Assembly: GCA_020890945.1 (NCBI GenBank)
Contig: JAJHPK010000065.1
Span: 1 to 37,059, forward strand
Length of the DNA stretch: 37,059 bases
Direction: 5' to 3'
Source: Nitrosomonas sp.
GTDB taxonomy: Bacteria > Pseudomonadota > Gammaproteobacteria > Burkholderiales > Nitrosomonadaceae
The notes under the pieces were generated by a model. That model saw only the letters and a list, made by a program, of their open reading frames with translations. It ran no database searches and had not been told where the DNA came from. Made by a program: the position numbers and the translations under genes. Positions 478 to 19,244 of the stretch are shown here, piece by piece (position 1 is the first letter of the stretch; the number at the start of each line of letters is the position of its first letter).

Positions 478-567
478 TGGTGCCCGGAGCCGGAGTCGAA
501 CCGGCACGGGCGGTTTAAGCCCGAGGGATTTTAAGTCCCTTGTGTCTACCTATTTCACCACCCGGGC
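478..567 (-). tRNA. tRNA-Leu (anticodon UAA)
   Basis: The minus strand folds as a class II tRNA. The acceptor strand GCCCGGG (567-561) pairs with the 3' strand at 488-482 with one G-U pair. The anticodon stem AGGGA/TCCCT encloses a 7-base loop CTTAAAA with anticodon TAA at 533-531. A long variable arm typical of Leu tRNAs follows, then a GCCGG-TTCGACT-CCGGC T-arm. Discriminator A and an encoded CCA (480-478) close the gene. An integrase stump follows its 3' end, and an IS1-like transposon begins 119 bases upstream of its 5' end. Confidence 0.97.
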
Positions 568-677
568 GATCAAATTGAAATGCAATTTACTTCAAATATG
601 CATGATTAACAAGTGAAGTGAAATTTCAGGCGGCATTATAACCCGAATATAGGGCATTTTAATATGAATTATTCATT

Positions 678-685
678 TGAAATGC
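678..685. repeat. Target site duplication, left copy
   Basis: TGAAATGC directly abuts the left inverted repeat and is identical to 3938-3945 beyond the right end. Confidence 0.88.
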
Positions 686-704
686 GGTAGTGTCTCAGTT
701 TGAA
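686..704 (+). repeat. Left terminal inverted repeat of the IS1-like transposon
   Basis: The 19 bases GGTAGTGTCTCAGTTTGAA are a perfect inverted match to 3919-3937; similarity ends at base 20. The transposase stop codon (TGA, 697-695) lies inside this repeat, so the coding end and the transposon end overlap. Confidence 0.92.
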
Positions 705-1591: not shown

Positions 1592-1663
1592 TTAGTTCAT
1601 GTTGAAATTATACACTATCAATAGCAAAGGTCAAGCATATAGTTCAGTTTAACGCTATGCGTT

Positions 1664-1702
1664 CAGTAATACATTTACAAATAAATATAATTACTGTATG
1701 AT
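1664..1702 (+). promoter_or_regulatory. Promoter and candidate operator of the higBA cargo operon
   Basis: TTTACA (1674-1679), a 17-base spacer and TATGAT (1697-1702) form a good sigma-70-type promoter. The expected transcription start, about seven bases after the -10 box, falls on or next to the higB ATG (1709), and no Shine-Dalgarno sequence precedes that ATG, so the message may be leaderless. An inverted repeat CAGTAAT (1664-1670) / ATTACTG (1690-1696) brackets the -35 box and spacer, a sensible place for HigA autorepression. Confidence 0.55.
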
Positions 1703-1708
1703 TGTTTT

Positions 1709-2008
1709 ATGGAGATTGAGTTTAAAGATCAAGGTTTAGAATTAATAGAAACTGAAAAAGCTGCAGAAAGCGGTCTTCCAGTATCTATTATTAAATCATG
1801 CAGAAAAAAACTCGTATTTTTGAGAAGCGCGACAGACGAAAGAACTCTTAGAGAGTGGAAAAGTCTACATTACGAAAAATTGAGTGGTGATAAAGAAGGG
1901 CTAAGATCAATACGATTAAATGACCAATGGAGGCTAGTGTTTGAAATGGATACAAAATGCAATCCTAACAAAATCACAGTCATATGTATTGAAGATTATC
2001 ACAAATAA
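1709..2008 (+). CDS. higB: HigB-type toxin (RelE/ParE superfamily)
   Basis: This 99-aa protein has the length and layout of HigB toxins: a helical first half, then the conserved segments SLHYEKLSGD and SIRLNDQWRLVFEMD and a final strand ITVICIEDYHK. HigB toxins cleave mRNA on the ribosome and are neutralised by HigA. The toxin gene comes first, the characteristic higBA order, with 23 bases to the antitoxin ATG. The ATG at 1709 has no ribosome-binding site upstream and sits at the predicted transcription start. It is cargo of the IS1-like element and could stabilise the element in the host, which is inference. Confidence 0.88.
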   Translation: MEIEFKDQGLELIETEKAAESGLPVSIIKSCRKKLVFLRSATDERTLREWKSLHYEKLSGDKEGLRSIRLNDQWRLVFEMDTKCNPNKITVICIEDYHK

Positions 2009-2031
2009 ATATAAAGATTAAAGGCTTAAAT

Positions 2032-3156
2032 ATGGATACCACTACAAACGATAACTGGGTTCCTCACCCTGGAGAATTCATTAAAGAGGAGATAGATGAG
2101 CGAGGATGGAGTCAACGTGACTTGGCATTTATTCTTGGTTGCCCTGAACAGGCAATAAATATGCTTGTTTCCGGGAAGCGTGGGATCAGCCCTGAAATGG
2201 CTAAAGCACTTGGAGATGCATTTGGTGTTCCTGCTGATCTTTTTTCAAATTTGCAACGTACATTTGATCTAGCTAACGCACGCGACCCTAATCCCGGGAT
2301 TGCTAAACGTGCACGCATACAATCCGAGTACCCTGTTAGAGAGATGATAAAGCGAGGCTGGTTAGAAGACACTGATGCAATAATGTTAGAAGCACAAATG
2401 GCAAGATTCTTTAATGTACCTAATATTAATGATGTTCCTCATCTCGATCATGCCGCAAAAAAAACTAATTACGATGAAGTGCTATCTGAACAATTGGCGT
2501 GGCTATTTCGTGTTAAACAAATAGCAAAATCTATATCTGTTACTGCCAAATACTCCGAGAAATTACTCAGGAATGCTGTAATAAAATTGAAACATTTATT
2601 GGTTGACCCTGAATCGATCAGAGAAATACCGCGCATTCTTTCAGAAACTGGCGTGAGGTTTATACTCGTTGAATCTCTTCCTGGTTCAAAAATTGATGGC
2701 GTATGTTTTTGGCTAAATAATGAATCTCCTGTTATTGGAATGTCCTTACAGAAAGATCGTATTGATAATTTCTGGTTTGTATTGCGACATGAGATAGAAC
2801 ACGTTTTGTGCGGACATGGTAAAACTAAAGAAATTATTGACTCTGATATATTCGAGAATATAGATAAAGAGATAAACGAGGATGAACAAATAGCGAATAC
2901 TGCAGCATCAGATTTTTGTGCTCCAATAAAAGAAATGGATTCATTTGTGGCTAGAAAATCTCCATTTTTTTCAGAAAAAGATATTCTTGCTTTCGCAAAA
3001 ATTATGCAGGTACATCCTGGGTTAGTTGTTGGTCAATTACATGCTCGTACTAAGAGATATGAATTATTTAGAAAATACTTAGTTAAAATACGTCAATTCG
3101 CATTACAAGAATCGATAAAAGACGGATGGGGCGAACCATTCCCTGTGGATATTTAA
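2032..3156 (+). CDS. higA: HigA-type antitoxin fused to an ImmA/IrrE-like zinc peptidase domain
   Basis: The 374-aa protein has two parts. Residues about 10-75 form an XRE helix-turn-helix with the HigA hallmarks HPGEFIKEE and LVSGKRGISPEMAKALGDAFG. Residues about 195-330 form an ImmA/IrrE-type metallopeptidase with HEIEH (253-257) and a downstream candidate zinc ligand E285 in DEQIANTAASDF. Plain HigA antitoxins are about 100 aa; this is the long form. It should bind HigB and repress the operon, and the peptidase part could sense stress or cut a repressor, as ImmA and IrrE do in other systems. Which activity operates here is not shown by sequence. It lies between higB and a 158-aa unknown gene whose start is 10 bases downstream, so the three are probably co-transcribed. 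Confidence 0.85.
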   Translation: MDTTTNDNWVPHPGEFIKEEIDERGWSQRDLAFILGCPEQAINMLVSGKRGISPEMAKALGDAFGVPADLFSNLQRTFDLANARDPNPGIAKRARIQSEYPVREMIKRGWLEDTDAIMLEAQMARFFNVPNINDVPHLDHAAKKTNYDEVLSEQLAWLFRVKQIAKSISVTAKYSEKLLRNAVIKLKHLLVDPESIREIPRILSETGVRFILVESLPGSKIDGVCFWLNNESPVIGMSLQKDRIDNFWFVLRHEIEHVLCGHGKTKEIIDSDIFENIDKEINEDEQIANTAASDFCAPIKEMDSFVARKSPFFSEKDILAFAKIMQVHPGLVVGQLHARTKRYELFRKYLVKIRQFALQESIKDGWGEPFPVDI

Positions 3157-3166
3157 AGGAACTGCT

Positions 3167-3643
3167 ATGAACTATGCAGAACAAATGCAAAAAATATGGA
3201 ATGAATATCAAGATGCAGGTATGCCTATTCCTGCAACATCAAGAGATGTTGCTGCTTGGGCAATACACAAAGGTCTTTGGAAACCGCGCCCTGCTGATAT
3301 TGTTTCTCAATGTGCAGATGATCTTTCTAGAGCATTAAGAGAGGAATATAGAACAGATAAAAATGGGCGACGCTATAGATCAAAGCATGCAGTAAGAATT
3401 AATTCTGGAGGCACGCAATTAACATTCTGGGCGGATATAGATTCAGCCCCACGCTCTCATATGGAGAAAGCGTTCGCACAGAGACGGCGGCAGATAATTG
3501 GGGATTGCTATCAGCTAAAAACAGACGTGGATTGCTATAACAATGCTCATTCATCAGAGCCTCCAATTAATCTGGTTCTTGATTTTACGATGGACGTAAA
3601 AGAAATAGATGTAATGAACGGTTTTGATCAAAAGTCAGCTTAG
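3167..3643 (+). CDS. Unknown cargo protein downstream of higA
   Basis: This 158-aa protein has no motif that I can name. It is soluble, with no signal peptide or membrane segment. It has an aromatic, Pro-rich stretch early (AWAIHKGLWKPRPADI, about residues 30-45), a basic central part (YRTDKNGRRYRSKHAV) and an acidic end. AGGA lies just before the ATG. The gene follows higA by 10 bases and overlaps the convergent 77-aa gene by 4 bases at its stop. Its position makes it a likely third member of the higBA-peptidase operon. Its job is unknown: it could be a modulator of the toxin system or a substrate of the peptidase domain. Confidence 0.7.
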   Translation: MNYAEQMQKIWNEYQDAGMPIPATSRDVAAWAIHKGLWKPRPADIVSQCADDLSRALREEYRTDKNGRRYRSKHAVRINSGGTQLTFWADIDSAPRSHMEKAFAQRRRQIIGDCYQLKTDVDCYNNAHSSEPPINLVLDFTMDVKEIDVMNGFDQKSA

Positions 3644-3873
3644 CAGTTCTTTTTCCAACGTGCTTCAGCAGCTGTTCTTGCAATATCTGCACGTTCCTCT
3701 GGGGTGAGCTTCTCCGCCCTAGACTTACCTCCTTTAAGGCCACCACGCCGCCCTGATTCAATGGCTGCTTTTTTCTTTTCGTCGATTTCTTCAGGCTGAA
3801 TTTCACCTGTAGCCTCATCAACGATGCGCTTTGCCAGTTGATTCAAATCCATTTTTTTGGGTCGTTTACTCAT
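3640..3873 (-). CDS. Small basic Lys/Gly-rich protein, cargo of the transposon
   Basis: This 77-aa protein is very basic. After a short N-terminal segment (MSKRPKKMDLNQLAKRIVD) it carries the repeated-looking block GRRGGLKGGKSRAEKLTPEE and then RADIARTAAEARW. This Gly-Gly-Lys-x-Arg-Ala / LTPEER / ARxAAxxRW pattern recurs in small proteins often called histone-like or RNA-binding, though their function is mostly untested. It is read toward the higBA operon, overlapping the end of the 158-aa gene by 4 bases, and starts 45 bases inside the right terminal repeat. Nucleic-acid binding is inferred from charge only. Confidence 0.7.
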   Translation of the reverse strand: MSKRPKKMDLNQLAKRIVDEATGEIQPEEIDEKKKAAIESGRRGGLKGGKSRAEKLTPEERADIARTAAEARWKKNC

Positions 3874-3918
3874 GCAGCTATGATAGCATTGATGTAAACA
3901 AGTTCAACTGTGGCAAAT

Positions 3919-3937
3919 TTCAAACTGAGACACTACC
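3919..3937 (-). repeat. Right terminal inverted repeat of the IS1-like transposon
   Basis: It is a perfect 19-base inverted copy of 686-704, with the outermost base at 3937. Confidence 0.92.
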
Positions 3938-3945
3938 TGAAATGC
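3938..3945. repeat. Target site duplication, right copy
   Basis: TGAAATGC is identical to 678-685. Removing 686-3945 restores the uninterrupted ancestral sequence between tRNA-Leu and the DUF4139 gene. Confidence 0.88.
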
Positions 3946-4027
3946 TGTCTACGCCTGGTAAGCTTTATTCGAACTCATTTTCAACCACTCATCATTCGAT
4001 TTCTAATCATTACATTTACTTTCTCAT

Positions 4028-5539
4028 ATGCCATACCACAGTGATATAAAAATAAATTCTTTCTTAATCAGAATATTACAGAGAAAGATTCTTTCATCTT
4101 TTTCTGTAGCAGTGATTGGGATTTTATTGATCATTAACGCAGATACTTTTGCTACTTCTATGGATAACCAAGAAAAGACTTCCACAACACAGGATCAGAA
4201 AAACGTCGCGATCACGATCTATAACGAAAATCTGGCATTAGTAAAAGATTTGCGTCACATTAAGTTGGACTCAGATTTAAATCGTCTGGCGTGGCGTGAT
4301 GTTTCTGCGCAGATTCGTCCAGAAACGGCGATATTGCGAAGCCTGAACCATTCGAGTGAGTTTCGTTTAGTGGAACAAAATTTTGATTTTGATCTGCTGA
4401 CACCGACTAAGCTATTAGAAAAATATCGTGGACAAGAAATTGTTGTGATTCGTACAAACCCTGCTTCTGGGGTTGAAACGAAAGAAACGGCTACCGTACT
4501 TGCTACGAATGAAGGCATTGTGCTGAAATTTGGTGATCGCATTGAAACCGATATTTCTGGTCGGCTGGTATTTCCTGGAGTACCCAATCATTTACGGGAT
4601 AGGCCGACCTTACTACTTTCTTTACTCAATTCTGCGAAAGAAGCACATGATTTTGAACTTTCTTACCTCACGTCTGGATTGTCTTGGCACGCCGATTATG
4701 TCGCGGCACTAAATGAAAAAGACAATGTTTTGGATTTGAATGGATTAGTGACATTAACCAACCAGAGTGGCGCTGCTTATCGTGACGCGCAATTACAATT
4801 GGTTGCGGGTGATGTCAATCAAGTACAGCCAGCACTGGGAAGATCGACCAAAATGATGGAAATGACAGCAATGGCCGCGGCCGATGCGCCACAAATGAAA
4901 CAAGAATCATTTTTTGACTATCATTTATACACATTGCAACATCCGACTACGCTATCCGAAAATCAAACTAAGCAAGTATCATTGATGTCAGCGGTAAATG
5001 TACCTTTAACAAAAGAATATTTATTGCAAGGCGCAGATTACTATTATTCAGGACAACATGGCACGATTGAACAAAAAAAATCGGTCGGGGTATATATCAG
5101 CTTCATGAATAAAGGAAAAGGGTTAGGCATTCCATTACCGAAAGGTGTAATACGTGTGTACAAAAAAGATTTAGCGGGAAATAGTCAATTTGTAGGTGAA
5201 GATCGAATCGAACATACTCCGAATAATGAGTTAATTCGTTTGAAACTGGGTAATGCGTTTGATATCACAGCGAATAAACTACAAACAGATTTTCAGCAGA
5301 TCTCTGCGAATATGCCAAATCAAGCGGGCGTCTTTGAGAGTGCTTATAAAATTACTATAAAGAATGCCAAGAAAGAAGCAATAAAAGTACAAGTACAAGA
5401 ACCTATGCCTGGAGATTGGAAAATTCTATCGGAATCCTTGCCTCATGAAAAAAAATCAGCAAACACGGTGGAATGGAGCGTTCCTGTGGCTGCTGAAAGT
5501 GAAACAGTTCTAACGTATCGTGCACGCAACAAATACTGA
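4028..5539 (+). CDS. Secreted DUF4139-family protein
   Basis: This 503-aa protein begins with a basic N-region (residues 1-20) and a hydrophobic segment (SFSVAVIGILLIINADTFA, about 25-43), so it is probably exported to the periplasm or outer surface. The mature part is mostly beta-rich. It opens with VAITIYNENLALVKDLRHI and contains LTSGLSWHADYVAALNEKD and a C-terminal PGDWKILSESLPHEKK / WSVPVAAESETVLTYRARNKY block, the pattern of DUF4139 proteins. No enzyme activity is known to me for this family. The ATG at 4028 lacks a clear ribosome-binding site, but no later Met precedes the signal core, so I keep it. The gene stands alone, 83 bases right of the transposon's target duplication, so its promoter region may have been disrupted by that insertion. 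Confidence 0.8.
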   Translation: MPYHSDIKINSFLIRILQRKILSSFSVAVIGILLIINADTFATSMDNQEKTSTTQDQKNVAITIYNENLALVKDLRHIKLDSDLNRLAWRDVSAQIRPETAILRSLNHSSEFRLVEQNFDFDLLTPTKLLEKYRGQEIVVIRTNPASGVETKETATVLATNEGIVLKFGDRIETDISGRLVFPGVPNHLRDRPTLLLSLLNSAKEAHDFELSYLTSGLSWHADYVAALNEKDNVLDLNGLVTLTNQSGAAYRDAQLQLVAGDVNQVQPALGRSTKMMEMTAMAAADAPQMKQESFFDYHLYTLQHPTTLSENQTKQVSLMSAVNVPLTKEYLLQGADYYYSGQHGTIEQKKSVGVYISFMNKGKGLGIPLPKGVIRVYKKDLAGNSQFVGEDRIEHTPNNELIRLKLGNAFDITANKLQTDFQQISANMPNQAGVFESAYKITIKNAKKEAIKVQVQEPMPGDWKILSESLPHEKKSANTVEWSVPVAAESETVLTYRARNKY

Positions 5540-6870: not shown

Positions 6871-8622
6871 CTATAGCTGATATTTTTTTATAAAAAACTC
6901 TTCTGCTTGATCGACAGGTAATGGTTTGCTTAAGTAATATCCTTGAACATCATTGCAAGATTTGTTTTTCATAAAATCTAATTGTGTGTTGGTTTCAACC
7001 CCTTCAGCTGTTACCTTCATATTCATGCTGGTAGCCATTGCGATAATGGCTGTGGCAATCGCACCATTGTCGGAGTTTTCTTCTAAATTTCGTACAAAAG
7101 CCTGGTCGATCTTTAATCGATCAATAGGGAAATTCATTAATCGACTTAGGCTAGAATATCCTGTTCCAAAATCATCAATGGCAAGTTGCACTCCGACTTG
7201 TTTCAATTCTCGAAGTACATTAATAACAACGTCGACATCATTGATTAACGCACTTTCAGTTAATTCGAGCTCTAAAATACTCGGATCTAACGAACATTCC
7301 GTTAAGGCGTCATTTACCATTTCGGCGAAACCGGTATGAAGAAGTTGCACAGCCGAAACATTAACTGCAATACGAGTTAGGGGAATACCTTGATTGCACC
7401 ATATCTTAGCTTGATTGCAGGCTTTTCTTAAAACCCATTCGCCAATATGGATAATGAGACCGGTTTCTTCAGCAAGAGGGATAAATTCGACAGGGGAAAT
7501 TTGTCCTAATTCTTTGTTTTCCCATCGTAATAGTACTTCCACTCCATTAAAGTTACCTTTCTCTACATCAAATTGTGGTTGATAATGCAGGTAAAATTCA
7601 TCGCGTTCAATAGCCTTACGCAAATGACTTTCCATGGATAATTTTCGTACGGCCATTTCCATCATATAGTTGGAAAAGTAACAATACATATTACCGCCAG
7701 AACGTTTAGCATAATACATTGCAAGATCAGCGTTTTTGAGCAAATCTTCAGAAGTTTCACCGTCATCTGGATAAACTGCAATACCGATACTCGTAGTGGT
7801 TGTGAGTTCGTGTTCCCCAAAAATGAATGGTTGGGCTAATTTAATTCTAATGCGTTCGGCTACAATCGCCGCATCTTCATTGCGTTCAATTAACGGTAAC
7901 AATGCAGTGAATTCATCTCCTCCTAGACGGGCAAGCGAGATATCACCTTGACTAATTACTGGTTGAGCAAATGTATCGCTGATGCGAATACTTTTTCTTA
8001 ATCGTTCGCTAGTAGCTTGTAGTACTAAATCGCCTAAATGATGACCTAATGTGTCATTAATACGTTTGAAACCATCCAAATCAAGAAATAACACGCCTAG
8101 TTTTAATTTCTTACGTTGTGCCAAGGCAATCATTTGTTGTAGGCTTTCTTGGAAGAAATGGCGATTCGGTAACTCAGTTAAATCATCAAAGTATGCCATC
8201 TGATGAAGACGTTGTTCACTTTGCAGCAATTGCTGTGTAGTAAAACTACCTTTGAGCATATACCGAACCCGATGACTTAATAAAGGAATATTGATTGGTT
8301 TGGTAATAAAATCTGTAGCACCAACTTCGTATGCTCGATTAATCGACTCGATATCTTCTAATCCTGTCATCATCAGAATAGGTAAATGTTTACCCTCGGG
8401 CATATTTCGTAATTCATAACAAGTGGCATATCCATCAATACCGGATGGCATCATGACATCTAGAAGTATTGCATCTATCTCGTTATCTTTGAAAAGACGT
8501 AAACCTTCTTCGCCACTGGATGCTTCAAGCGTATTCATACCTGCAGCTTGCAATGTTCTCGCGACTACCAATCGTATTAAAGGATCGTCGTCAATGATAA
8601 TGACGGTTGATTGATGGTGCAT
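6871..8622 (-). CDS. Response regulator with GGDEF and EAL domains (c-di-GMP turnover)
   Basis: This 583-aa cytoplasmic output protein combines three domains. A receiver (about 5-122) has the acidic pocket DDD at 11-13, phospho-acceptor D55 in LLDVMMP and K108. A GGDEF domain (about 145-315) has an intact GGDEF at 234-238 but no RxxD inhibitory site five residues before it. An EAL domain (about 325-575) has the signature EVL (362-364), plus NVS, ELTES, DDFGTGYSS (483-491), RLKIDQ, AEGVET and VQGYYL. All expected metal and catalytic residues appear present, so both synthesis and breakdown of cyclic di-GMP are possible. It is the last gene of the seven-gene minus-strand operon, one base after the hybrid kinase stop (TAATATG), and so is the obvious recipient of the kinase signal. 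Confidence 0.93.
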   Translation of the reverse strand: MHHQSTVIIIDDDPLIRLVVARTLQAAGMNTLEASSGEEGLRLFKDNEIDAILLDVMMPSGIDGYATCYELRNMPEGKHLPILMMTGLEDIESINRAYEVGATDFITKPINIPLLSHRVRYMLKGSFTTQQLLQSEQRLHQMAYFDDLTELPNRHFFQESLQQMIALAQRKKLKLGVLFLDLDGFKRINDTLGHHLGDLVLQATSERLRKSIRISDTFAQPVISQGDISLARLGGDEFTALLPLIERNEDAAIVAERIRIKLAQPFIFGEHELTTTTSIGIAVYPDDGETSEDLLKNADLAMYYAKRSGGNMYCYFSNYMMEMAVRKLSMESHLRKAIERDEFYLHYQPQFDVEKGNFNGVEVLLRWENKELGQISPVEFIPLAEETGLIIHIGEWVLRKACNQAKIWCNQGIPLTRIAVNVSAVQLLHTGFAEMVNDALTECSLDPSILELELTESALINDVDVVINVLRELKQVGVQLAIDDFGTGYSSLSRLMNFPIDRLKIDQAFVRNLEENSDNGAIATAIIAMATSMNMKVTAEGVETNTQLDFMKNKSCNDVQGYYLSKPLPVDQAEEFFIKKYQL

Positions 8623-8623
8623 A

Positions 8624-11512
8624 TTAATTCTTTCCTGAGGTACTTTCTAACGTATTTAGATAAGATCTTAGCGTGGTACAAGCTTCTAAAAAATGTTGTT
8701 TAATCACGACCAATGCTTGACCAGAGACATCATAGATATTATTCCGAGCTTCGTTTTCAACATTTCGGCATAGCTCAGCCAAAGTATGAGCGCCAACTTG
8801 GCTGCTACTCGATTTAAGCGTATGCGATGTCATTCGAATAGCTTTAAGATCACCGCTACTCCATGCTTGTTCAAGGGTTTCCATTAATTTTTCACCGTTT
8901 TCAAGATAAGTTTTTATCACTTGTTTGAGTAATTCATCCCCATAATCGACTTCAAGAGCACGAATGGACGCAAGAGCTTCAGTATCGATTGAGAGTTTGT
9001 GCGCAGCTTCCATTGAAGCTTGAGTCGTAGTTTGTTTCATTTCAGGAATTTTATTTTTTAATTGCATCGATTTGGAGTTACTTAACCAAGTTTCAACAGT
9101 ATTGGCTAGATCTTTGGCTTTAATGGGTTTTGCTAAATAGTCATCCATGCCAGTTGTCAAGCATTTTTCTCTATCACCCTCTATGGCATTGGCAGTTAAC
9201 GCGATAATAGGGAAATAATTTAATTTTCCGGTACTTTGTTGTCGTCTAATTTCAGTCGTTGCACGATATCCATCCATTTCTGGCATCATGCAATCCATTA
9301 AAACTAAATCATAAGGTTTGCGTTGCACTGCTTCTATTGCTTCGATACCGTTTTTGACGACATCAACGATGTAACCAAAATTACGCAACATGCCTAAAGC
9401 AACTGCCTGATTGACTGGATTGTCTTCTGCAAGTAATAAATAACCTTTTGATTCGAGGGTGTCAGATCCCTCTGCTTGATCGGAAAAGCCTTTAGAAGCA
9501 ATGTCTTTATCAGATTGCAATAGATTATCGGTATGCAAAGAATTTCTTGCTTGCACCAAACATTTATACAACTCACTTTTTCTAATGGGTTTTGTTTTAT
9601 AAACAGCGAATCCTGTTTTCTTTGCTTCATCCGCTTCTCCCTTATAATGCGTTGAAGTTAACATGATGAGAGGAATTTTAGTCCAGTCTGGATTAGCCTT
9701 AATCTTTTGCCCCAACTCTAATCCATTCATATTGGCCATTTTCATATCAATTAATACCAGATCATAATTTTTGTGATTGATCGTCGCTTCATGCAATTTG
9801 TCTAAAGCTTTTTGAGCGCTACCTACTGAGCTGACGTCCATGCCCCACGATTCAGCGTAGGCATTCAAAATACCGCGGCTGGTATTATTGTCTTCCACGA
9901 TTAAAAGTTTTACACCCGACAATTCGGAATTTAATTTTGTCGGTTCTTTTGATTCGGTACATTCTCCTATCTGTAAAGGAAGGGTAAATGCAAAAGTAGA
10001 TCCTTTGCCGATATGACTGTTGACTTTTATTTCTGTCCCTTCCATTAATTCTACCAGTTGCTTAGAGATGGCTAGGCCCAGACCCGTACCGCCGTATTTC
10101 CGGGTGGTTGAACCATCCGCTTGAGAAAAGGCTTGAAACAAACGAGGCATAACATCTTCATTAATGCCGATACCGGTATCGCTGACACTAAAACGTACAG
10201 CAAGCTGGTTTTTACTTTCTGTATAAGTTTGCTTATTGTTATTAACAGAGGTATCAAGGCTAATATCAACGATAACTTCACCGAATTCGGTGAATTTAAT
10301 GGCGTTTCCAATCAGATTACCAAGTACTTGTCTGATGCGAGTGGGGTCGCCTTTAATCCATTCAGGAATTACAGGATCAATTCGATAGTTCAATTCAAGA
10401 TTTTTACTATGTGCCCGTTCAGAAAAAAGTTCGATAACTTCTTCAATCGATCTATGTAAATCAAAATCTATATTTTCTAATTCGAAACGGCCTGCTTCTA
10501 TTTTGGAAAAATCAAGAATGTCATTAATGATAGATAAAAGTGATTCGCCAGAATTATGGAGTATGCTTATGAAATGCAATTGTTGGGAATTAAGTGGTGT
10601 ATCCAATAATAATTCCGCCATTCCGAGCACACCATTCATTGGCGTACGAATTTCATGACTCATTGCTGCTAAGAACTGAGATTTTGCTAAGTTAGCTGCT
10701 TCAGCATTTTCTTTCGCCTGCCTTAATTCAATAGTCCTTTCTTCAATTTTATTTTCCAGATCGGAATGATATTGCACTAACTCTTTGTCTCTAATTTGTA
10801 TTTGTTCAAGCATGCTATTAAAAGCGTCGACTAAAGTACCCACTTCATCATTGACGCTGTGCCGTGTAACGCGTAAGGAATAGTGGCCAGAGCTAGAAAC
10901 TTTTTCTGCAGTGGTTGAAAGATCATAAATAGGTTGTACCACTTTGGACGCCATGCGTTTGGCTAAAAATGTAGCGGCAATAAAAGCTACCAGCATGGAT
11001 AATGCGAAAATCATTAGATTCCATCCTAATTGTTGCCACATTGTTCCTAGCGCATATCTAATTTTCAAGCTTCCGACATACTCTTCTCCCGTTTTAATTG
11101 GTTGATCAATAGACATGTCTTGAAAGGGTAGCCAGTTTGGTAACCATATTTGTTTCGGATTGTTTAAGCTAGCAATTTCTTGCCCATTTTGTGTGGTCAG
11201 TGAGGCTTCAGTGATAGAAGGAATTTGAAGCAATGAATTCAAAGTTTGTTGTGCGTTTTTTTCATCTGCAAATGTGAGAGAAGCTTGAGAGTTATCGGCT
11301 GTGACACGTGCCAATCCATTTAATTGCTCTTTTGCAATGTTAAGTGAACTTCTCACTTCGTTAACTGCAACTAAAGCAAAAATCAATAGCATTGATGATG
11401 CTAGACTTACGAAAATTATTAATAATAATCTGTCCGCAATGGAACGATCTTTGCGTGGTAATTTTTCAATCAGCGTTGAGTTCGACCTAATTCTTATAGG
11501 AAAATAGTTCAT
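8624..11512 (-). CDS. Hybrid sensor histidine kinase, CHASE8-like sensor, HAMP, HisKA, HATPase, two REC, HPt
   Basis: This 962-aa inner-membrane kinase has TM1 at about 28-50 and TM2 at about 163-185, enclosing a periplasmic sensor of about 110 residues. That sensor ([38 protein letters not shown]) looks like the CHASE8 sensor of YfiN-type proteins. A HAMP region (about 186-240) and coiled coil lead to HisKA with H286 in [10 protein letters not shown], then a HATPase with N403, DTGIGI (445-450) and GGTGLGL (474-480). REC1 carries D589 (VLIDMKM) and REC2 carries D740 ([11 protein letters not shown]). A C-terminal HPt has H897 in SHTLKSSSS. This is a BarA-like phosphorelay layout. It starts 4 bases after the yfiR-like gene and ends 1 base before the REC-GGDEF-EAL gene, so both are likely functional partners. 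Confidence 0.93.
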
Positions 11513-11516
11513 ATAC

Positions 11517-12068
11517 TTACCGATCCCTTATATGACGGGCTATTTGTAGAAGTTGAGCACTCAGTTTTAATCCAGAATTTCTAACATGTTCAAGATTAAT
11601 TTCGAAATTTAATGTTTTTCCATTATTAATTAAAATAATCATTCCACCCATATCGAGAAATTCGCTGACATTACTAACTATCAGTATCGGTTTTTGTCTA
11701 GTAATCTTGAGCCAGTTTCGGGTTTTCTCAGCACTTTCCTCTCTCGATAAATACAATAATTGGCAGTCATCTATAGGTTCTCCGAAATTAACATATTTAA
11801 TCAGCACAGGTTTGTTTTCAATCGATCGGCCTGTAATGTCGTCCAATTCTTTAAACTTCTGGTTTTCAGGAATACAAAGCTTTATTTCTCTTGTAATTAT
11901 TTCTCGCGGCCACTCTGTAAATTTTAGAAAATTATAAAGAAAGGCCGCAATCAGTGCTTGCTCACTGGCACTTGTTGTTGCGATAGCCCTATCCATATAA
12001 GTGATATCGGTCACTATCAAGGCTAGCATAAAAATTACTGCTTTAATGGTAATCCGTAATTTTTGCAT
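11517..12068 (-). CDS. YfiR-family (DUF4154) periplasmic protein, copy 1
   Basis: This 183-aa protein has a signal peptide (residues 1-30, ending near RAIA) and then the family core: [57 protein letters not shown] and LRLSAQLL-type ending [18 protein letters not shown]. In Pseudomonas, YfiR is a periplasmic inhibitor of the membrane diguanylate cyclase YfiN. Here it lies 4 bases upstream of a membrane kinase and 4 bases downstream of a TonB-dependent receptor, so I infer it relays between those two. Two cysteines remain in the mature part (C65, C102) and are shared with copy 2, so one disulfide is possible. Confidence 0.9.
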
Positions 12069-12072
12069 TTTG

Positions 12073-14136
12073 TCAGAAGGATTTTTCCAAACGAAATCTT
12101 ACTGTGCGTCCGTCCATACGCAGAACGTCTTGCACATGCTCTGGACCGCCAACCATTTTTGGATGGCTATCTAACACATTATAGAGCCCGAGGTGGGCTT
12201 CAAATCCATAAATCGGTTTGGTCATGGCTAAATTGATGTTAAATATATGATAAGCAGGGGCGGATTCTCCAGCTAAAGTACGGCGGCTGTCTACAAAAAT
12301 TTCTTCAAAACCCAAGCGAAATCGATTGTTAAATATAGGTTCAGCGTAGTGTGCTTTTATTAGATTTTGTGGAGAATTAATGGCTTTTGACCAGGGCGAG
12401 TTGGAAAAATCGTCACGTGTTTCGGTATGATTATATGTCCAAGATAATTTGAACAAGCGGCCATTGTCCCAGCGTCTTTCGCCTTGCAATTCAAAGCCGA
12501 TACTCCTCGCATGACCGGCATTCATGAATTTATTAAAATCTGAATCGTCGGCGTTGGTAAATTGATCTGTTTTTTCTATCAGTAATTTGTTTAAATCGTT
12601 AAAAAATAACGTTCCTAAAAACCTCATGCCATCAATGGGATACCATTCCGCAATAGCTTCATAGCTTTTAATCAGTTCCTCGCGATTGTTGGGATTCCTA
12701 ACATTGGAATCTAATAATACATAATCTCGTTCGTAGATATTGGGGGCACGGAAGGCTGAACTGTAAAGTAATTTTCCGGTGAGTGTTGGCTTAATATTCC
12801 AAATCAAACCAACTCTGGGATTAATCTGAATATTTTTAATCAAGTGATGGTGGTCGACGCGAAATCCGGCGTTCAGGGCTAGATTGTTGGTAATACGATA
12901 TTCATCTTGAAGATAACCGCCTATTCTTAAGCCGCCATTATTACTATTATTATAGGAAAAGAACTCTGGTATGAAATCATAATTGACCATATGTTGGCGT
13001 TGATCATATTGAAAATCAATTCCTGTGATCCATTTATGATCTTTGAAGTGAGTGCCGATTAATTTGACCTCTCCACCCCACCAACGTGCTGAAGTAGCAT
13101 CTTTGTTTACAGCACGGTAGAAACTAATGCCATCATTGCTGTTAAGATAAGCTTCAATGCTATGATAATCGTACCAATGATGAAAGCCGCGAGCTTGTAG
13201 TGTTAAATCTTTATTGATCGACGTATTGTAATCAAGATCAACGAACGCTTGCCTATCTACCATGGTAAACGGTCTGTCGTTAAAAATCCCTCCAAAAGAG
13301 GCTGTAGGAACACGTTTGGAGCGATCCACATAACCCGTGCTTATAGTGAATCCTTTGTAACTCAGTTGTCCAAAAAGCCGGTCACTTCTTTCGCGATCCA
13401 TATTTTGCGCAATACCATTATTGAATTCACGAAATTCTTCAAAAAATAGCTGTGAATTTCCTTGGCTTCTATATTGCGAAGCATTTAATAATAAACTTAC
13501 GCCATTGTCCCATTCTTTTCCGTAGGTTAACCGGCCACGATAGGTATCAAGACTGCCAACTTCTCCAGTCAATCGCAGGGCATTAATGTCTTTGCCTTTT
13601 TTTGTGATCACATTGATGACACCCAGCAACGCATTACCACCATAAACTGAGGAACCCGAACCTGGAATGTATTCGATACGATCAATGATGTTCATATCGA
13701 GCAAAAAATCTTCACCCAGGAAGCTCTGATCAAAGAGCGCGTCATTCATGCGCCGACCGTTGATCATGATCAAGATTCGTGAATTATATTCACCTACTGG
13801 ACCAAAGCCACGTACGCCAAGGTAGGTATAATTGCGATCGGTGCGAACGTGCAAGCCACGAATAGCGTTGAGTGCATCCGATAACGTGCGCCAATTGAAA
13901 CTACGAATATCTTCCGCAGTTAATACTTCAACAGAAGAGGGCGCTTCAGAGGATTTTTGTTTAAAACGGGAAGCGCTTTGCACTTCTACATTAACGAGCT
14001 GTGTGAGCGGCATTTCCAGAAAATCATCTTTTTTATCCGCTTTTGCAGTCAGTGGTGCAATTAAATTGATTAACAAAGAAATAATTAAAAAGCTATAAAA
14101 GCTATGCTTTAAATAGTATTTTTTAATATTTCTCAT
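12073..14136 (-). CDS. TonB-dependent outer membrane receptor 1 (divergent copy)
   Basis: This 687-aa protein has a signal peptide (about 1-33, ending TAKA) and the segment LEMPLTQLVNVEVQSASRFKQ, which serves as the linker and possible TonB box. A plug domain follows (about 55-170; LTAEDIRSFNWRTLSDAL, GVRGFGPVG, DRIEYIPGSGSSVYGGNALLGVINVITKK), then a 22-strand barrel ending in the C-terminal Phe typical of outer membrane barrels. TonB-dependent receptors import bound ligands using ExbBD-TonB energy, and some also signal. It has no N-terminal FecA-type signalling domain. It is clearly less similar to receptors 2 and 3 than those two are to each other. It ends 4 bases before yfiR copy 1. The ligand is unknown. 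Confidence 0.92.
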   Translation of the reverse strand: MRNIKKYYLKHSFYSFLIISLLINLIAPLTAKADKKDDFLEMPLTQLVNVEVQSASRFKQKSSEAPSSVEVLTAEDIRSFNWRTLSDALNAIRGLHVRTDRNYTYLGVRGFGPVGEYNSRILIMINGRRMNDALFDQSFLGEDFLLDMNIIDRIEYIPGSGSSVYGGNALLGVINVITKKGKDINALRLTGEVGSLDTYRGRLTYGKEWDNGVSLLLNASQYRSQGNSQLFFEEFREFNNGIAQNMDRERSDRLFGQLSYKGFTISTGYVDRSKRVPTASFGGIFNDRPFTMVDRQAFVDLDYNTSINKDLTLQARGFHHWYDYHSIEAYLNSNDGISFYRAVNKDATSARWWGGEVKLIGTHFKDHKWITGIDFQYDQRQHMVNYDFIPEFFSYNNSNNGGLRIGGYLQDEYRITNNLALNAGFRVDHHHLIKNIQINPRVGLIWNIKPTLTGKLLYSSAFRAPNIYERDYVLLDSNVRNPNNREELIKSYEAIAEWYPIDGMRFLGTLFFNDLNKLLIEKTDQFTNADDSDFNKFMNAGHARSIGFELQGERRWDNGRLFKLSWTYNHTETRDDFSNSPWSKAINSPQNLIKAHYAEPIFNNRFRLGFEEIFVDSRRTLAGESAPAYHIFNINLAMTKPIYGFEAHLGLYNVLDSHPKMVGGPEHVQDVLRMDGRTVRFRLEKSF

Positions 14137-14198
14137 GATTAATGAAAATTAATTCAGCCCTCAAGCTGCAAAATAGCATTGTTTATGTCGCTAAGATT

Positions 14199-16319
14199 TC
14201 AGAAACGCAATTGCGCGCCAGCATAAAACCCTCTCGGAATAAGACCAGGAAAGGAATATATGAAATCTGGCATTGCTTCTTGGTGATTTTGCGCAAACAA
14301 GTTTTGCCCCACCAAAAATAACTCTAATTTCTTGTTTGGATTAAATGCTAATTTTGCATCCATCGTGACATATCCCGGTATTTTGTAATATGAAATGCCA
14401 CTGACATAACGCAGCCAAAGATTCAATTGAAGCTTGTCGGAGACGTCATAATGTGAACGTACCGAAATGTGATGTTGTTGATTAACCTTATCTGCGCCGT
14501 TAGACGTTGGATCAAAATATCTTTTTGAGGCATCCGATGATATATTCATATCCAGGAAGCTATAGTTTCCTTGCAAGCGCCATTTATCAGTGGGTTTCCA
14601 GTCTCCAGAAATTTCAACTCCATAAGTCAAGCCTGAAGCCTTGTTATTACCCATAAGTGAAAGTAAAACATGTCGTGGTACTCCGCTGACGAATGAAAAT
14701 GCACCCATGGAAAGATCACGTAATTCACTATAATCATTTACAAATCCGGCAATATCAATCGAGGCTTGTGGTGAAAATTGGTGACGGTAACCTAATTCAT
14801 AGGCAATAAGTTTCTCTGATTTAAAGGCATGATTGCCTTGAAAAATAGCTTGAACAGCAAGAGGTAATCCAAGGTTAAGTCCCGGGAGATTAGGAAGGTA
14901 TCCAGCCACGACTTCTCCATCATTTTCTATACGTGAAGGTGTGCGTACCGCTCGAGAGATAGACCCCCACACTGAATTGTAAGAAGTTGGTGTCCACATC
15001 AAACGCGCATTCGGTTGGATTTCTAAACCGGTAAAATCGTTGCGATCTAAACGAGTACCGATCGAAAACATTAAGCGATCAGGAATAAGCTTTATATCAT
15101 TGCGTATAAACCCGCTAAAAACTTGATTCGTTTGACCACTCGGCGACAATTGGATGAGATTGCCTTCGGTCAGCTTAGTATGATACAAGCGATAGTTAAA
15201 TCCCCATGTTAGATCGTTATAAGTCAAAAATGGAAAGCGATGTTGAAAATCAATATCAAAACTTTCTGACATGTAACTAGTAATCGCCGGCAATTTAAGA
15301 TTTACATGATCATAATAGGTTTGCAGCATGATGGAAGATTGTTCGGAAATAGCCCGATCCCAACGCAAGCGAATATTTCCTCCCTCGCTGCGGCCACGGT
15401 CAATGACTAGAGGTATCGTTGGGTCAAGTGTCGCTTGTGAGTAGGTGTTGTTTCCAATGAAATTCGAAAACAAATCTCCTTGCAACGTAAATTGGTCAAT
15501 GCCGCGGCTGTGATCGATACGAAAACCGCCTCTGACCGAATGCCATTCATCGCGATTTGTTTGTCCCAACGGTGACATCATATCGTTCCGCGTAAATCCT
15601 TTTGCAAAAATACGGAAAGGGGTGTCGTCATTGATTTTTCCGCCATAGCGGGCTCCAACAAAACCCTGTTCAAATGTGCCTCCACCCGCTGTTAACAGAG
15701 TTCCTTGAGTATCGGCAGCTTTCTTTGTAATCACATTGATCACACCATTTACCGAATTAATTCCCCATACGGTAGCAGCAGGGCCTCGAATCACTTCGAT
15801 CCGATCAATGTCTTCCATTAACGTATCTTGCTGTTCCCAGAAGGTCCCAGAAAATAATGGTGTATAGACGCTACGGCCATCGATTAAAACTTGTAGCTTG
15901 TTGGCATAGCGACCATTGAATCCGCGGATACTGATTGCCCATTTGTCTGTGCCAATCCGATCGACTTGAACCCCTGGGGCCATCCGTAGAGCTTCGGGAA
16001 TGCTTGTCGCGCCTGATCGACGAATATCGTCTTGTGTAATCACAAATACGGCTGAAGCGACATCCTGTAGTTTTTGCGACCTCCGCGATACACTCGTGAT
16101 TTCAATTTTGGTCAACTCCGCAATGGGTAAATCTAAGAAAGGATTATTAGCGGCTTTATTAAGGTTTGTATCATTGGCAATGACTATTTTTCCTGACAGG
16201 CATGCCAATGAAACCAGAATAAATTTACGAAAAGTAGCGGTTAGAACTATTCTTCTCGAATAAAGATGGTTTTTTCGAAAAAATACAGAGAGATAGGTAA
16301 AGAAAGAATTCATTGTCAT
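14199..16319 (-). CDS. TonB-dependent outer membrane receptor 2
   Basis: This 706-aa receptor has an unusually long N-terminal extension before a hydrophobic export core (FRKFILVSLACLSGKIVIA, about 30-48). Next come FLDLPIAELTKIEITSVSRR, a plug (ITQDDIRRSGATSIPEALRM, SIRGFNGRYANKLQVLIDGR, DRIEVIRGPAATVWGINSVN) and a barrel ending AGAQLRF. The start ATG at 16319 overlaps the stop of yfiR copy 2 by 4 bases (ATGA), implying translational coupling; a second ATG two codons later is possible. It is a close paralogue of receptor 3 throughout its length. No substrate can be assigned from sequence. Confidence 0.92.
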   Translation of the reverse strand: MTMNSFFTYLSVFFRKNHLYSRRIVLTATFRKFILVSLACLSGKIVIANDTNLNKAANNPFLDLPIAELTKIEITSVSRRSQKLQDVASAVFVITQDDIRRSGATSIPEALRMAPGVQVDRIGTDKWAISIRGFNGRYANKLQVLIDGRSVYTPLFSGTFWEQQDTLMEDIDRIEVIRGPAATVWGINSVNGVINVITKKAADTQGTLLTAGGGTFEQGFVGARYGGKINDDTPFRIFAKGFTRNDMMSPLGQTNRDEWHSVRGGFRIDHSRGIDQFTLQGDLFSNFIGNNTYSQATLDPTIPLVIDRGRSEGGNIRLRWDRAISEQSSIMLQTYYDHVNLKLPAITSYMSESFDIDFQHRFPFLTYNDLTWGFNYRLYHTKLTEGNLIQLSPSGQTNQVFSGFIRNDIKLIPDRLMFSIGTRLDRNDFTGLEIQPNARLMWTPTSYNSVWGSISRAVRTPSRIENDGEVVAGYLPNLPGLNLGLPLAVQAIFQGNHAFKSEKLIAYELGYRHQFSPQASIDIAGFVNDYSELRDLSMGAFSFVSGVPRHVLLSLMGNNKASGLTYGVEISGDWKPTDKWRLQGNYSFLDMNISSDASKRYFDPTSNGADKVNQQHHISVRSHYDVSDKLQLNLWLRYVSGISYYKIPGYVTMDAKLAFNPNKKLELFLVGQNLFAQNHQEAMPDFIYSFPGLIPRGFYAGAQLRF

Positions 16320-16873
16320 CTTCCCCTTACTTCTCTGGCAATTTGTAGCAATTGTGCATTCAATTTCAATGCAGAATTTCTAGTAACTTCGAGGTTTACT
16401 GAGAAATTGAGATTTTTGCCATCGTTAATTAATGCAATCATTCCTCCCATATCCAGAAAACCGCTAGCATTGCTGACTATCAGAGTTGGCTGACCTTTCG
16501 TTAAATTAATCCACTCACGAATATTGTCTGCGCTGATATCACGCGGCAGGAATAAAAGTTGACATTGTTTGTAAGAATCGGATTGCGAGATGAATTTAAC
16601 TTGAACTGGTTTGTTTTGAACAACTTTTCCGGAAATTGCTTTAAGTTCTTCAAAAGTGGAATTTTTATCGGTACACAAAGTGATTTCATTGTTGATCGAG
16701 CCTTCTGGCCATTCAGTAAACTTAAGAAAGTTATAAAGAAAAGCTGCGATCAAGGTTTGTTCACTGGCCGTTTGAGAAGATGCGAAAATAGGGGAAATGG
16801 CGCAAAGATTAACAAATAAAATCAGCATTCCAATACTAATTTTTAGAGAATCGAGCAGTCGTTTCATCATCAT
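16316..16873 (-). CDS. YfiR-family (DUF4154) periplasmic protein, copy 2
   Basis: This 185-aa paralogue of the downstream copy has a signal peptide of about 31 residues (ending PIFA), then [58 protein letters not shown] and [17 protein letters not shown]. The two mature cysteines (C67, C104) match those of copy 1. It is sandwiched between receptors 3 and 2 and overlaps the latter by 4 bases. The start MMMKRL offers three successive ATGs; the first is taken here. I infer a periplasmic adaptor paired with receptor 2 or 3. Confidence 0.9.
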   Translation of the reverse strand: MMMKRLLDSLKISIGMLILFVNLCAISPIFASSQTASEQTLIAAFLYNFLKFTEWPEGSINNEITLCTDKNSTFEELKAISGKVVQNKPVQVKFISQSDSYKQCQLLFLPRDISADNIREWINLTKGQPTLIVSNASGFLDMGGMIALINDGKNLNFSVNLEVTRNSALKLNAQLLQIAREVRGR

Positions 16874-16928
16874 CCTCGAACCTTATGGATGATGATGAAG
16901 TGATGCAACGCTTGGGCTATATGGTTTA

Positions 16929-18965
16929 TTAAAAGCGCCATTGTGCTCCCGCATAGATTCCTTGAGGAATGTAGGTTGCCAATGATGGAATAAAATCAGA
17001 TGAAAATTCTCGATGCTTTTCTTGAAATAGATTTTGACCTACGATGAACAATTCAGTGTTTTTGGTCGGCTTAAATATTACTTTTGCATCCATTGTGATG
17101 TAATCAGGAATATTGTAAAAACTAATATTACTGACATAACGCAGCCATAAATTAAATTGCAGTTTTTCTGATAAATCGTAATGCGAGCGTAATGACATAT
17201 TGTGTTGTGGTGTTACCTTATCAGCGCTACCTGTCGTCGGATCTAGGCTTCGAGCAGGGGATTGTGAGTGAATATGCATCGATAAGAAGCTGTAACTCCC
17301 TTGTAGGCGCCATTTCTCATGCGGTTGCCAGTCAATTGAAACTTCAACGCCTTGTGTATGGCCAGACGCTTTATTATTTATTCCAACAGGGAATGTGAAA
17401 TAAGAGGGTACGCCTGAATGAAAAGTAATGAGTCTTGAATCTAAAGACAAATCACGCAGTTGCGTATAATCATTATAAAAAGCGGCAATATCGATGGAGG
17501 CTTTCGGTGTTATTGCGTGACGATAGCCTAATTCATACGCCAACAATTTTTCTGAATTGAAATGCGAAGATCCATTTAACTGCATCATAGTAACAAGGGG
17601 CGGTTGTCCCAGGGTGCCAAAATTCAGCAAGATGTCATTTTCAGCTCGAGATGGAGTGCGTACAGCGCGTGACACGGCTAACCAAAGTGAATTTTTTTCA
17701 TTGGGCGTCCACATTAGGCGCCCATTCGGTTGAATTTCTAATCCAGAAAAATCATTGTGATCAAACCGTGTTCCTAGCGTCAGTTTCAAATGCTCAGGAA
17801 GCAGTGTGATTTCATCACGAATATATCCGCTAATTAAATGATTGGTTTGTTGGCGAGGTGTAAAAGTAATAAGCTGACTGTCAAAAACTTTGTTATGGTA
17901 TAAACGGTAATTAAAGCCCCATGTGACATCGTGTCGATTAAACAATGGAAAGCGATGATTGAAGTCGATATCAAAGCTTTCTGCTTTGAATTGGCTCGCA
18001 GTAAGCAGTTTATAATCAACGCGATCGTAATACATTTGCAACATGATTGCGGATTTTTCCGACAAAGTTCGGTCCCAGCGGAAACGAATGTTTCCACCTT
18101 CGCTATGTCCCCTTGCAGATCCTATCGGGATAATGGAGGGATTCACCAGATTTTTATCCAAAGTATCGCCGACTGCGTTATAGAAGATGTCTCCTTGCAG
18201 CGTTAGTTGATCGTTGCCATGTTGGTGATCTATTCTGAATCCGCCGCGTGCACTATGCCAATCATCATTGGCATTTTTCCCTTGCAAGGATTCCATATTA
18301 TTTCGGCTGAATCCTTTCGCATAAACACGATAGGCGGTATCTTCATTGATTTTTCCACCATAGCGCGCACCAACAAAACCGTGTTCAAAACTTCCACCCC
18401 CTGCGGTGAGGAGTGTTCCTTGTGTGTCCATTGCTTTTTTGGTGATGATATTGATGACACCATTAACGGCATTGGCTCCCCACATAGCAGCGCCTGGTCC
18501 TCGGATGACTTCAATACGTTCGATATCTTCCATGAGCGTATCTTGCAATTCCCATAGAACGCCGGAAAACAGCGGATTGTAAACACTACGGCCATCCATT
18601 AAAACTTGTAATTTTTCAGCAAACCGGCCATTAAAACCGCGGATATTGATAGCCCATTTATCGGTGCCAATACGAGCCACTTCAACACCGGGCGCCATGC
18701 GTAGTGCTTCAGGAATGCTGGTTGCACCAGAACGTCGAATATCATCCTGAGTAATGACAAATACCGCTGCGGCGACTTCAGCGAGTTTTTGCGAGCGTCT
18801 GGAAGCCGTGGTAACCTCGATTTTCATCAATTCTTCAATAGGCAAATCCAATAATTGCCCTTGAAGTCTATAGTTACTTGCGAAAGCATTATTAACACAA
18901 TAAATGCTAAATGCAATCAACAATAAACGATTCAACGGTATGTTTATAAAAGAAGCTGCAACCAT
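16929..18965 (-). CDS. TonB-dependent outer membrane receptor 3 (first gene of the operon)
   Basis: From the ATG at 18965 the protein is 678 aa, with a clean signal peptide (MVAASFINIPLNRLLLIAF and on to NAFA). The frame is open upstream to a TTG at 18986, which would add 7 residues, but neither start has a good ribosome-binding site. LLDLPIEELMKIEVTTASRR precedes the plug (ITQDDIRRSGATSIPEALRM, NIRGFNGRFAEKLQVLMDGR, ERIEVIRGPGAAMWGANAVN), and the barrel ends AGAQWRF. It heads the seven-gene run and is followed 55 bases later by yfiR copy 2. Its high similarity to receptor 2 suggests duplication of a receptor gene within the operon. Confidence 0.92.
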   Translation of the reverse strand: MVAASFINIPLNRLLLIAFSIYCVNNAFASNYRLQGQLLDLPIEELMKIEVTTASRRSQKLAEVAAAVFVITQDDIRRSGATSIPEALRMAPGVEVARIGTDKWAINIRGFNGRFAEKLQVLMDGRSVYNPLFSGVLWELQDTLMEDIERIEVIRGPGAAMWGANAVNGVINIITKKAMDTQGTLLTAGGGSFEHGFVGARYGGKINEDTAYRVYAKGFSRNNMESLQGKNANDDWHSARGGFRIDHQHGNDQLTLQGDIFYNAVGDTLDKNLVNPSIIPIGSARGHSEGGNIRFRWDRTLSEKSAIMLQMYYDRVDYKLLTASQFKAESFDIDFNHRFPLFNRHDVTWGFNYRLYHNKVFDSQLITFTPRQQTNHLISGYIRDEITLLPEHLKLTLGTRFDHNDFSGLEIQPNGRLMWTPNEKNSLWLAVSRAVRTPSRAENDILLNFGTLGQPPLVTMMQLNGSSHFNSEKLLAYELGYRHAITPKASIDIAAFYNDYTQLRDLSLDSRLITFHSGVPSYFTFPVGINNKASGHTQGVEVSIDWQPHEKWRLQGSYSFLSMHIHSQSPARSLDPTTGSADKVTPQHNMSLRSHYDLSEKLQFNLWLRYVSNISFYNIPDYITMDAKVIFKPTKNTELFIVGQNLFQEKHREFSSDFIPSLATYIPQGIYAGAQWRF

Positions 18966-19110
18966 GACGTTTGATATGTTACGCAACGGGTAGATAACTT
19001 GCTTATTTTATTCGATTCCAAAGGCTTTACCTGTTTTTTTGGCAACAAACATAGTACGTTGTAGCAATTACCACAAATAAATGAATTAAGCCGTTTTTAG
19101 GTGTTCTTTT

Positions 19111-19147
19111 CTAAGAAATAAAATTCTTAGAGTATGGTGCACATACT
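19111..19147. promoter_or_regulatory. Two adjacent dyads upstream of the receptor-kinase operon
   Basis: CTAAGAA (19111-19117) and TTCTTAG (19124-19130) form a perfect 7-bp dyad. Directly beside it AGTATG (19131-19136) and CATACT (19142-19147) form a perfect 6-bp dyad with a GTGCA centre. They lie about 145-180 bases before the receptor 3 start, in the gap 18966-19300 that otherwise holds only the htpX terminator. They could be operator sites for the operon; no regulator can be named. Confidence 0.35.
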
Positions 19148-19244
19148 TAAGGAAAATCAGTGGGTAGAACGATTGCACTAACAAATAAGCAGCTACTTTG
19201 CCTGCGGATCTATAGCATTCAAATACCTAGTGAAGATAAAGAAA

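Follow-up and report, generated by a model that had tools for sequence, protein, structure and literature searches.

The 37,059-base contig JAJHPK010000065.1 from the 2.68-Mb genome of a Nitrosomonas sp. (GCA_020890945.1) was analysed over its entire length and is referred to here as the window. It carries, all on the minus strand, seven genes (6871-18986) for three TonB-dependent receptors, two YfiR-like proteins, a hybrid histidine kinase (HK) and a response regulator (RR). The results of the current study suggest that these genes probably form a trans-envelope operon of the YfiBNR type, with TonB-dependent receptors in place of YfiB and the hybrid kinase in place of YfiN. The supporting evidence is the conserved linkage of such receptors to YfiR genes in other genomes, the separation of receptor loci from loci with a YfiB-like OmpA gene, and an invariant docking residue in the sensor domain of the transducers.

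Gene content of the operon

Coordinates of the open reading frames (ORFs) and Pfam domains confirmed the initial annotation of seven genes on one strand, in the order and with the junctions it gave. Successive gaps from the first receptor to the regulator are 55, -4, 62, 4, 4 and 1 bases, and from this spacing the genes are taken to be one operon. A strong terminator-like hairpin of 15 pairs (19277-19245) lies 3' of the upstream gene, which encodes an M48 peptidase (HtpX-like). Between this hairpin and the first receptor are about 260 non-coding bases (18987-19244, minus strand), predicted to include the likely operon promoter. Hairpin and leader fit a separate transcription unit. Terminator-like sites in the region did not exceed the shuffled expectation (12 found, against a mean of 11.0).

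The first receptor, TB3 (16929-18986), consists of a Plug domain and a beta-barrel and is a member of the NCBIfam TOL_0244 family (NF053590, 656.4 bits; cut-off in release 20.0, 645). Its coordinates stood except for the start, which had been placed at 18965; this is an ATG seven codons inside the longest ORF, which opens with TTG at 18986. TB2 (14199-16319) scored 621.5 bits with the same family, just below the cut-off, and TB1 (12073-14136), recognised by Pfam and BLAST, is divergent and reached only 132.3 bits. The genome holds 14 plug-domain receptors, three of them in the operon.

YfiR2 (16316-16873; Pfam, 126.2 bits) lies between TB3 and TB2, and YfiR1 (11517-12068; Pfam) between TB1 and the kinase. 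Both are periplasmic DUF4154/YfiR-like proteins with NF053591 scores (104.3 and 106.5 bits, respectively) under the cut-off of 125, and no DUF4154 match was found elsewhere in this genome. HK (8624-11512) has the domain order CHASE8-HAMP-HisKA-HATPase-REC-REC-Hpt, and contains the H-box, an Asp motif in each REC domain and the His motif of Hpt; its score with NF053592 was 133.5 bits over residues 24-239, and the cut-off of 194 was not reached. RR (6871-8622) is a REC-GGDEF-EAL protein by Pfam in which the GGDEF and EAL motifs are present. Directly before GGDEF it reads SQGD, and an RxxD inhibition site is expected just before GGDEF.

Linkage of TonB-dependent receptors to YfiR genes

An even draw of the phylum comprised 249 genomes, of which 55 had DUF4154, with 78 matches. 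All 69 matches outside the genus of the window were retrieved together with as much as 7 kb of flanking sequence, and domains at these loci were called with profiles grown from the window proteins. At 48 of the 69 loci a receptor was found within 4.5 kb of YfiR, on either strand; at 34 of the 69 it was the immediate same-strand neighbour 5' of YfiR, no more than 600 bases away. Receptors made up only 2 of the 216 genes lying more than 4 kb from YfiR, a control counted per gene, while linkage was counted per locus. At least one receptor-linked YfiR locus was present in 14 of 20 families. Linkage also persisted where gene order differed, since in 11 of the 18 linked loci of one family (f47) the receptor lies 3' of the kinase.

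The search was also made from the receptor side. Among 52 NF053590 matches of at least 250 bits, 42 had DUF4154 within 5 kb, compared with 6 of 80 tested matches below 200 bits (out of at least 98 such matches); one of these six is TB1 itself, and another is a further fragment of a receptor that had already been counted.

A scan of named genomes gave 519 confirmed relatives, of which the best 80 were kept, so that the counts favour YfiRs resembling those of the window. The loci come from Nitrosomonas, Methylobacter, Crenothrix, Methylomonas, Nitrospira, Geomonas, Acidobacteria and others. Within this best 80 of 519, a receptor lay within 4.5 kb at 71 loci, a CHASE8 gene was present at 61, and both were found at 53; receptors formed 5 of 364 distant genes. 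Conserved co-occurrence of these components had been suggested as a check in the initial annotation, and for receptor, YfiR and CHASE8 transducer the outcome was positive in the even and the named set.

Receptor or OmpA as possible outer-membrane partner

A YfiB-like OmpA gene stood beside a cyclase gene at nine of the 69 even-sample loci. All nine cyclases are CHASE8-GGDEF (YfiN-like) proteins and none of the loci has a receptor; these loci were set by hand, and some of the ORFs overlap the cyclase. A tenth OmpA hit was obtained at a kinase locus (L215), which likewise has no receptor; here the gene is on the opposite strand, at a distance of 1.25 kb from YfiR. OmpA was confirmed by Pfam for three loci (L197, L203 and L215), and the others were assigned by phmmer to two of these. 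The ten loci with OmpA near YfiR and the 48 receptor loci did not overlap. By transducer type, 40 of the 48 kinase loci in the even sample had a receptor and eight had none; the cyclase loci divided into three with a receptor, nine with OmpA and two with neither. One family (f18) has both receptor loci and OmpA loci, at separate loci.

Two YfiB-like queries gave no OmpA hit in the 118 genus and named loci of the first sets. In the window, no OmpA family was found in the 17 proteins scanned, and no ORF of at least 80 residues was hit by a YfiB-like query. Receptor and YfiB look like alternatives for one slot, with ancestry contributing to the pattern.

Many of the receptors linked to YfiR also share a motif near the plug. 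A first expression, which was too strict, matched 5 of 50 linked and 1 of 51 unlinked receptors. The second, written after the 50 linked receptors had been viewed, describes a hydrophobic residue, two residues, L, four residues, a hydrophobic residue, two residues and then [AVLS][SAG][RK], in a plug-proximal position within the N-terminal 260 residues. It matched 35 of the 50 viewed receptors, 46 of 71 held-out linked receptors (L077-L148), none of the 51 unlinked receptors and 33 of 2440 shuffled sequences. The unlinked set consisted of 40 receptors chosen manually out of 101 matches from eight genomes, together with the 11 of the genome studied here. The motif is a candidate contact site for YfiR or TonB, and shared ancestry accounts for it as well as function does.

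YfiR proteins and the kinase sensor

YfiR1 matched the YfiR of the PDB by sequence (E 3.4e-05). In its predicted model (mean predicted local distance difference test score, pLDDT, 86.7) the best matches were to solved YfiR structures, with all 15 hits at E of 0.001 or less, the best E at 7e-07 and a TM-score (TMt) of up to 0.80. YfiR1 is thus predicted to adopt the YfiR fold. The C71-C110 pair of YfiR is kept as C65 and C102, and the equivalents of C145 and C152 are L138 and I145. In the published text on P. aeruginosa YfiR, binding was mapped to F162, E163, F151, I169 and Q187. The first two are kept in YfiR1 (F155 and E156) but the others are changed (I144, V162 and I180, respectively), so the match of binding residues is partial. 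Glu occupies the E163 position in YfiR1, and it does so in 41 of 65 aligned YfiRs.

At 67 of the 69 even-sample loci the first long ORF 3' of YfiR was extracted for alignment to the window kinase. Pfam found CHASE8 in 60 of 68 such first long downstream genes. It was missing from two receptors, one UvrA-like and one CPSase-like ORF, and the four ORFs of L214-L217, whose neighbouring DUF4154 matches are the four weakest in the even sample, a kinase fusion in genome G006 aside. All 60 CHASE8 proteins, kinases and cyclases alike, carry Phe and Asp in the alignment columns that hold Phe81 and Asp83 of the window kinase, a count that excludes three unrelated ORFs showing Phe (L158, L204 and L210). 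In a second set of 53 sensors picked by profile from the named loci and the window, both columns were likewise invariant. In the main text of Malone et al. (2012; PMC3375315), YfiR binding is placed at the AAVVF motif of YfiN; the letters aligned to it in the window kinase are ASLTF, so that Phe81 falls at the YfiR-docking motif. Structures similar to the sensor model (pLDDT 83.5) were WalK and a LapD orthologue, the latter in its periplasmic domain. LapD, as described in the same text, likewise works through a periplasmic protein partner, LapG.

The four kinases of L214, L215, L216 and L217, which lie beside weak DUF4154 matches and have no CHASE8 by Pfam, perhaps represent a second class of YfiR-kinase system.

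Output of the system

A REC-GGDEF gene followed at 22 of 40 named kinase loci, the named set being the best 80 of 519. In the even sample a GGDEF gene followed at only 6 of 48 kinase loci, where some flanks end at contig ends, and this weighs against a pathway that always leads to cyclic di-GMP (c-di-GMP). A fixed pathway from receptor to c-di-GMP was accordingly rejected as a general rule. The relay from receptor through YfiR and kinase to c-di-GMP, as initially proposed, held for its receptor-YfiR-CHASE8 front end, which is conserved, but not for its REC-GGDEF output, which is not constant. The constant unit is receptor-YfiR-CHASE8, and c-di-GMP is only one of its outputs.

Several natural fusions and rearrangements support YfiR feeding both kinases and c-di-GMP enzymes. 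The kinase is fused to REC-GGDEF-EAL in a protein of 1638 residues at L033 (Pfam), and similar fusions were found with our own profiles at L104 and L119. At L053 the receptor and YfiR are followed by a CHASE8-HAMP-GGDEF-EAL protein with no kinase between, and at L043 a YfiR domain is fused to a hybrid kinase (Pfam).

The L043 fusion (7482-10016 of that locus) is an 844-residue DUF4154-HisKA-HATPase-REC protein, and Pfam listed no CHASE8 domain for it. It may have a counterpart in an 881-residue frame with a DUF4154 match (G006:C1:2027069).

Proposed mechanism and alternative explanations

In the proposed mechanism, a receptor would bind or release YfiR near its plug, in response to ligand or to TonB engagement. 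Free YfiR would dock on CHASE8 around Phe81 and alter the activity of the kinase, from which phosphate would pass along the route H-REC-Hpt to the REC domain of the REC-GGDEF-EAL regulator, altering c-di-GMP by either synthesis or breakdown. With two YfiRs and three receptors, one kinase could be reached by several ligands. The relay had been described earlier as linear; its component content stood, but the input is probably branched, since three receptors and two YfiRs are combined with one kinase. We infer the physical relay, its direction and its ligand. In wider terms, TonB-dependent receptors may be the ligand-gated counterpart of YfiB: a clade present in many lineages, with its own plug-proximal N-terminal motif, would capture or release the YfiR repressor directly and so control CHASE8 kinases or c-di-GMP enzymes. 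For this wider proposal we consider the balance to be even.

Several observations weigh against these proposals, in addition to the scarcity of GGDEF genes noted above. No receptor was found at 21 of the 69 even-sample YfiR loci, and the eight receptor-less kinase loci were counted as having neither receptor nor OmpA, although one of them is L215 with its opposite-strand OmpA gene. The loci are not independent, as 19 of the 69 come from one family (f47), and 18 of these are receptor-linked. From the receptor side, 10 of the 52 clade receptors (one of them in the genome studied here) had no YfiR within 5 kb, some lying at contig ends. A related Nitrosomonas operon (L218, genome G013) does have an OmpA-family gene farther 3' of the kinase (L218:3666-4364, 232 residues, on the operon strand), at a distance of 2 kb from the kinase and 9.6 kb from YfiR; the exclusion of receptor and OmpA therefore holds for the close neighbourhood. 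Of the two cysteine pairs of YfiR, one is lost. Finally, DUF4154 is absent from 10 of 25 genus genomes, the present one included in the 25, and is found in the other 15 in up to seven copies, which indicates an accessory system that is often multiplied.

YfiR could instead act as a periplasmic ligand-binding co-receptor, with the receptors importing the ligand at the expense of TonB energy and the CHASE8 kinase reading loaded YfiR; the binding-protein/kinase pair LuxP-LuxQ is a model for such an arrangement. Gene linkage is expected equally in this case. Moreover, the YfiR1 model also resembles a substrate-binding protein of Rhodothermus marinus (E 1.8e-03, TMt 0.57), and the text of the P. 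aeruginosa YfiR paper likens YfiR to an ABC-transporter domain of S. pneumoniae. However, the likeness to YfiR itself is far stronger, and the separation of receptor and OmpA loci is more readily explained if receptor and OmpA have the same role as outer-membrane partner than if the receptor supplies ligand. A co-receptor function of this kind is regarded as unlikely.

It appears distinctly improbable that the receptors are transport cargo, merely co-expressed with a YfiR-kinase-c-di-GMP unit that senses redox state, through the cysteine pair, or envelope stress. The retained pair (C65 and C102) would suit such a sensor, redox sensing being discussed for YfiR in the text on P. aeruginosa, and the 8 of 48 kinase loci with YfiR and no receptor are in keeping with it. 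Co-expression alone, however, explains poorly why one receptor clade stays with YfiR over many families and gene orders. Co-location of unrelated genes, whether by chance or specific to a lineage, for which one weak terminator-like site (5 pairs) in the 62-base gap and the patchy presence in the genus might speak, was rejected as scarcely credible on account of the distant-gene controls, the receptor-first search, the linkage conserved across families in both the even and the named set, and the natural fusion observed.

Relatives and history of the operon

In BLAST comparisons TB3, HK, RR and both YfiRs best matched a locus of a Nitrosomonas metagenome-assembled genome (MAG; locus L069), with identities of 79.6% for TB3, 80.1% for HK, 90.2% for RR, and 75% and 69% for the YfiRs. 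The nearest relatives of TB1 were receptors of Nitrosomonas (69%, and 63% in a partial alignment), Methylobacter (63.5%) and Crenothrix (54.6%); the Crenothrix locus (L078) shares with the window the core of receptor, YfiR, kinase and regulator. For TB2 and TB3, similar receptors occur in other Nitrosomonas clusters. We infer that TB1-YfiR1-HK-RR is the core of the operon and that TB3-YfiR2-TB2 is an added input.

At L069 the receptor between the two YfiRs is reduced to short overlapping ORF fragments (3453-4389 of that locus), suggesting either receptor turnover around a constant YfiR-kinase core or a sequence error. The YfiRs of L077, L078 and L079 (Methylobacter, Crenothrix and a Hyphomicrobium MAG) share 44-56% identity with those of the window, compared with 25-30% for sampled Nitrosomonas paralogues; judged by these identities, transfer of YfiR between ammonia and methane oxidisers is possible. 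The genome studied here also encodes a receptor of the same clade on a contig without DUF4154 (L222; G000:C8:15887-17824; 575.7 bits with NF053590), and this orphan might share the YfiRs of the operon.

Elsewhere in the window, the region 478-3156 holds a transposase-like ORF with weak IS1/IS240 matches beside a HigB-like toxin and a protein with helix-turn-helix and M78-peptidase domains, and a tRNA-Leu gene (478-567) lies close to this cluster. The region is possibly a small mobile or toxin-antitoxin island.

Comparison with known systems

YfiBNR is a P. aeruginosa system in which YfiR represses the sensor cyclase YfiN, and YfiB, an OmpA-like lipoprotein of the outer membrane, sequesters YfiR; E. 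coli YfiN/DgcN and Yersinia HmsCDE are named as its relatives in the published text. The operon resembles it in having a YfiR-fold periplasmic protein, a CHASE8/PAS sensor with the docking Phe, an outer-membrane partner and a c-di-GMP output. It differs in that TonB-dependent receptors are present and no YfiB-like OmpA ORF was found in the window, that the sensor is carried by a HisKA-HATPase-REC-REC-Hpt kinase with GGDEF on a separate regulator, that there are two YfiRs, and that the Cys145-Cys152 pair is lacking.

The main text of Malone et al. (PMC3375315) describes YfiR-PAS cores with kinase outputs, in which YfiB is often missing, and a Thauera system of two YfiRs with one hybrid-kinase YfiN. 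The operon is like these systems in its YfiR with a kinase output and its two YfiRs per kinase. The YfiR-kinase part has therefore been known since 2012, and the receptor as input is the proposal made here. TonB does not occur in that main text, and its passages on the YfiB-less systems define no outer-membrane input for them. Among the papers listed in literature searches, none was recognised as reporting a coupling of receptor and YfiR. Both the linkage and the partner swap observed in the current study point to TonB-dependent receptors as the outer-membrane input.

TOL_0244 of Thalassolituus oleivorans, the namesake of the TB3 family, was up-regulated sevenfold on C28 alkane compared with Tween 80, and OmpS of Alcanivorax dieselolei, described as alkane-detecting, is 40.3% similar to it, according to the main text of PMC6304351, in which YfiR is absent. 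These proteins hint at sensing receptors in the clade of TB3.

In NCBIfam the names of NF053590 (TOL_0244 TonB receptor), NF053591 (TOL_0243 YfiR-like) and NF053592 (YfiR-associated sensor kinase) indicate that curators appear to have seen the receptor-YfiR-kinase association already. These are family names only, with no mechanism given, and TB3 alone passes its cut-off, while TB2, TB1, both YfiRs and HK fall below theirs.

In the FecA-FecR-FecI system a TonB-dependent receptor also serves as signal input, through the FecA-FecR-sigma route. The present system shares this use of a receptor but not the components. Pfam listed no STN domain in the three window receptors or in the 47 linked even-sample receptors scanned with them, Plug being the sole family found in all 50, and FecA-type signalling was rejected on this basis. 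No FecR or FecI family was found among the 17 window proteins scanned, in agreement with the initial annotation that an anti-sigma factor of the FecR type is missing. If the proposal is true, it would add a further TonB-receptor signalling route beside FecA-FecR-sigma, and presumed nutrient importers would also be sensors for phosphorelay and c-di-GMP in ammonia oxidisers, methanotrophs, Nitrospira and others.

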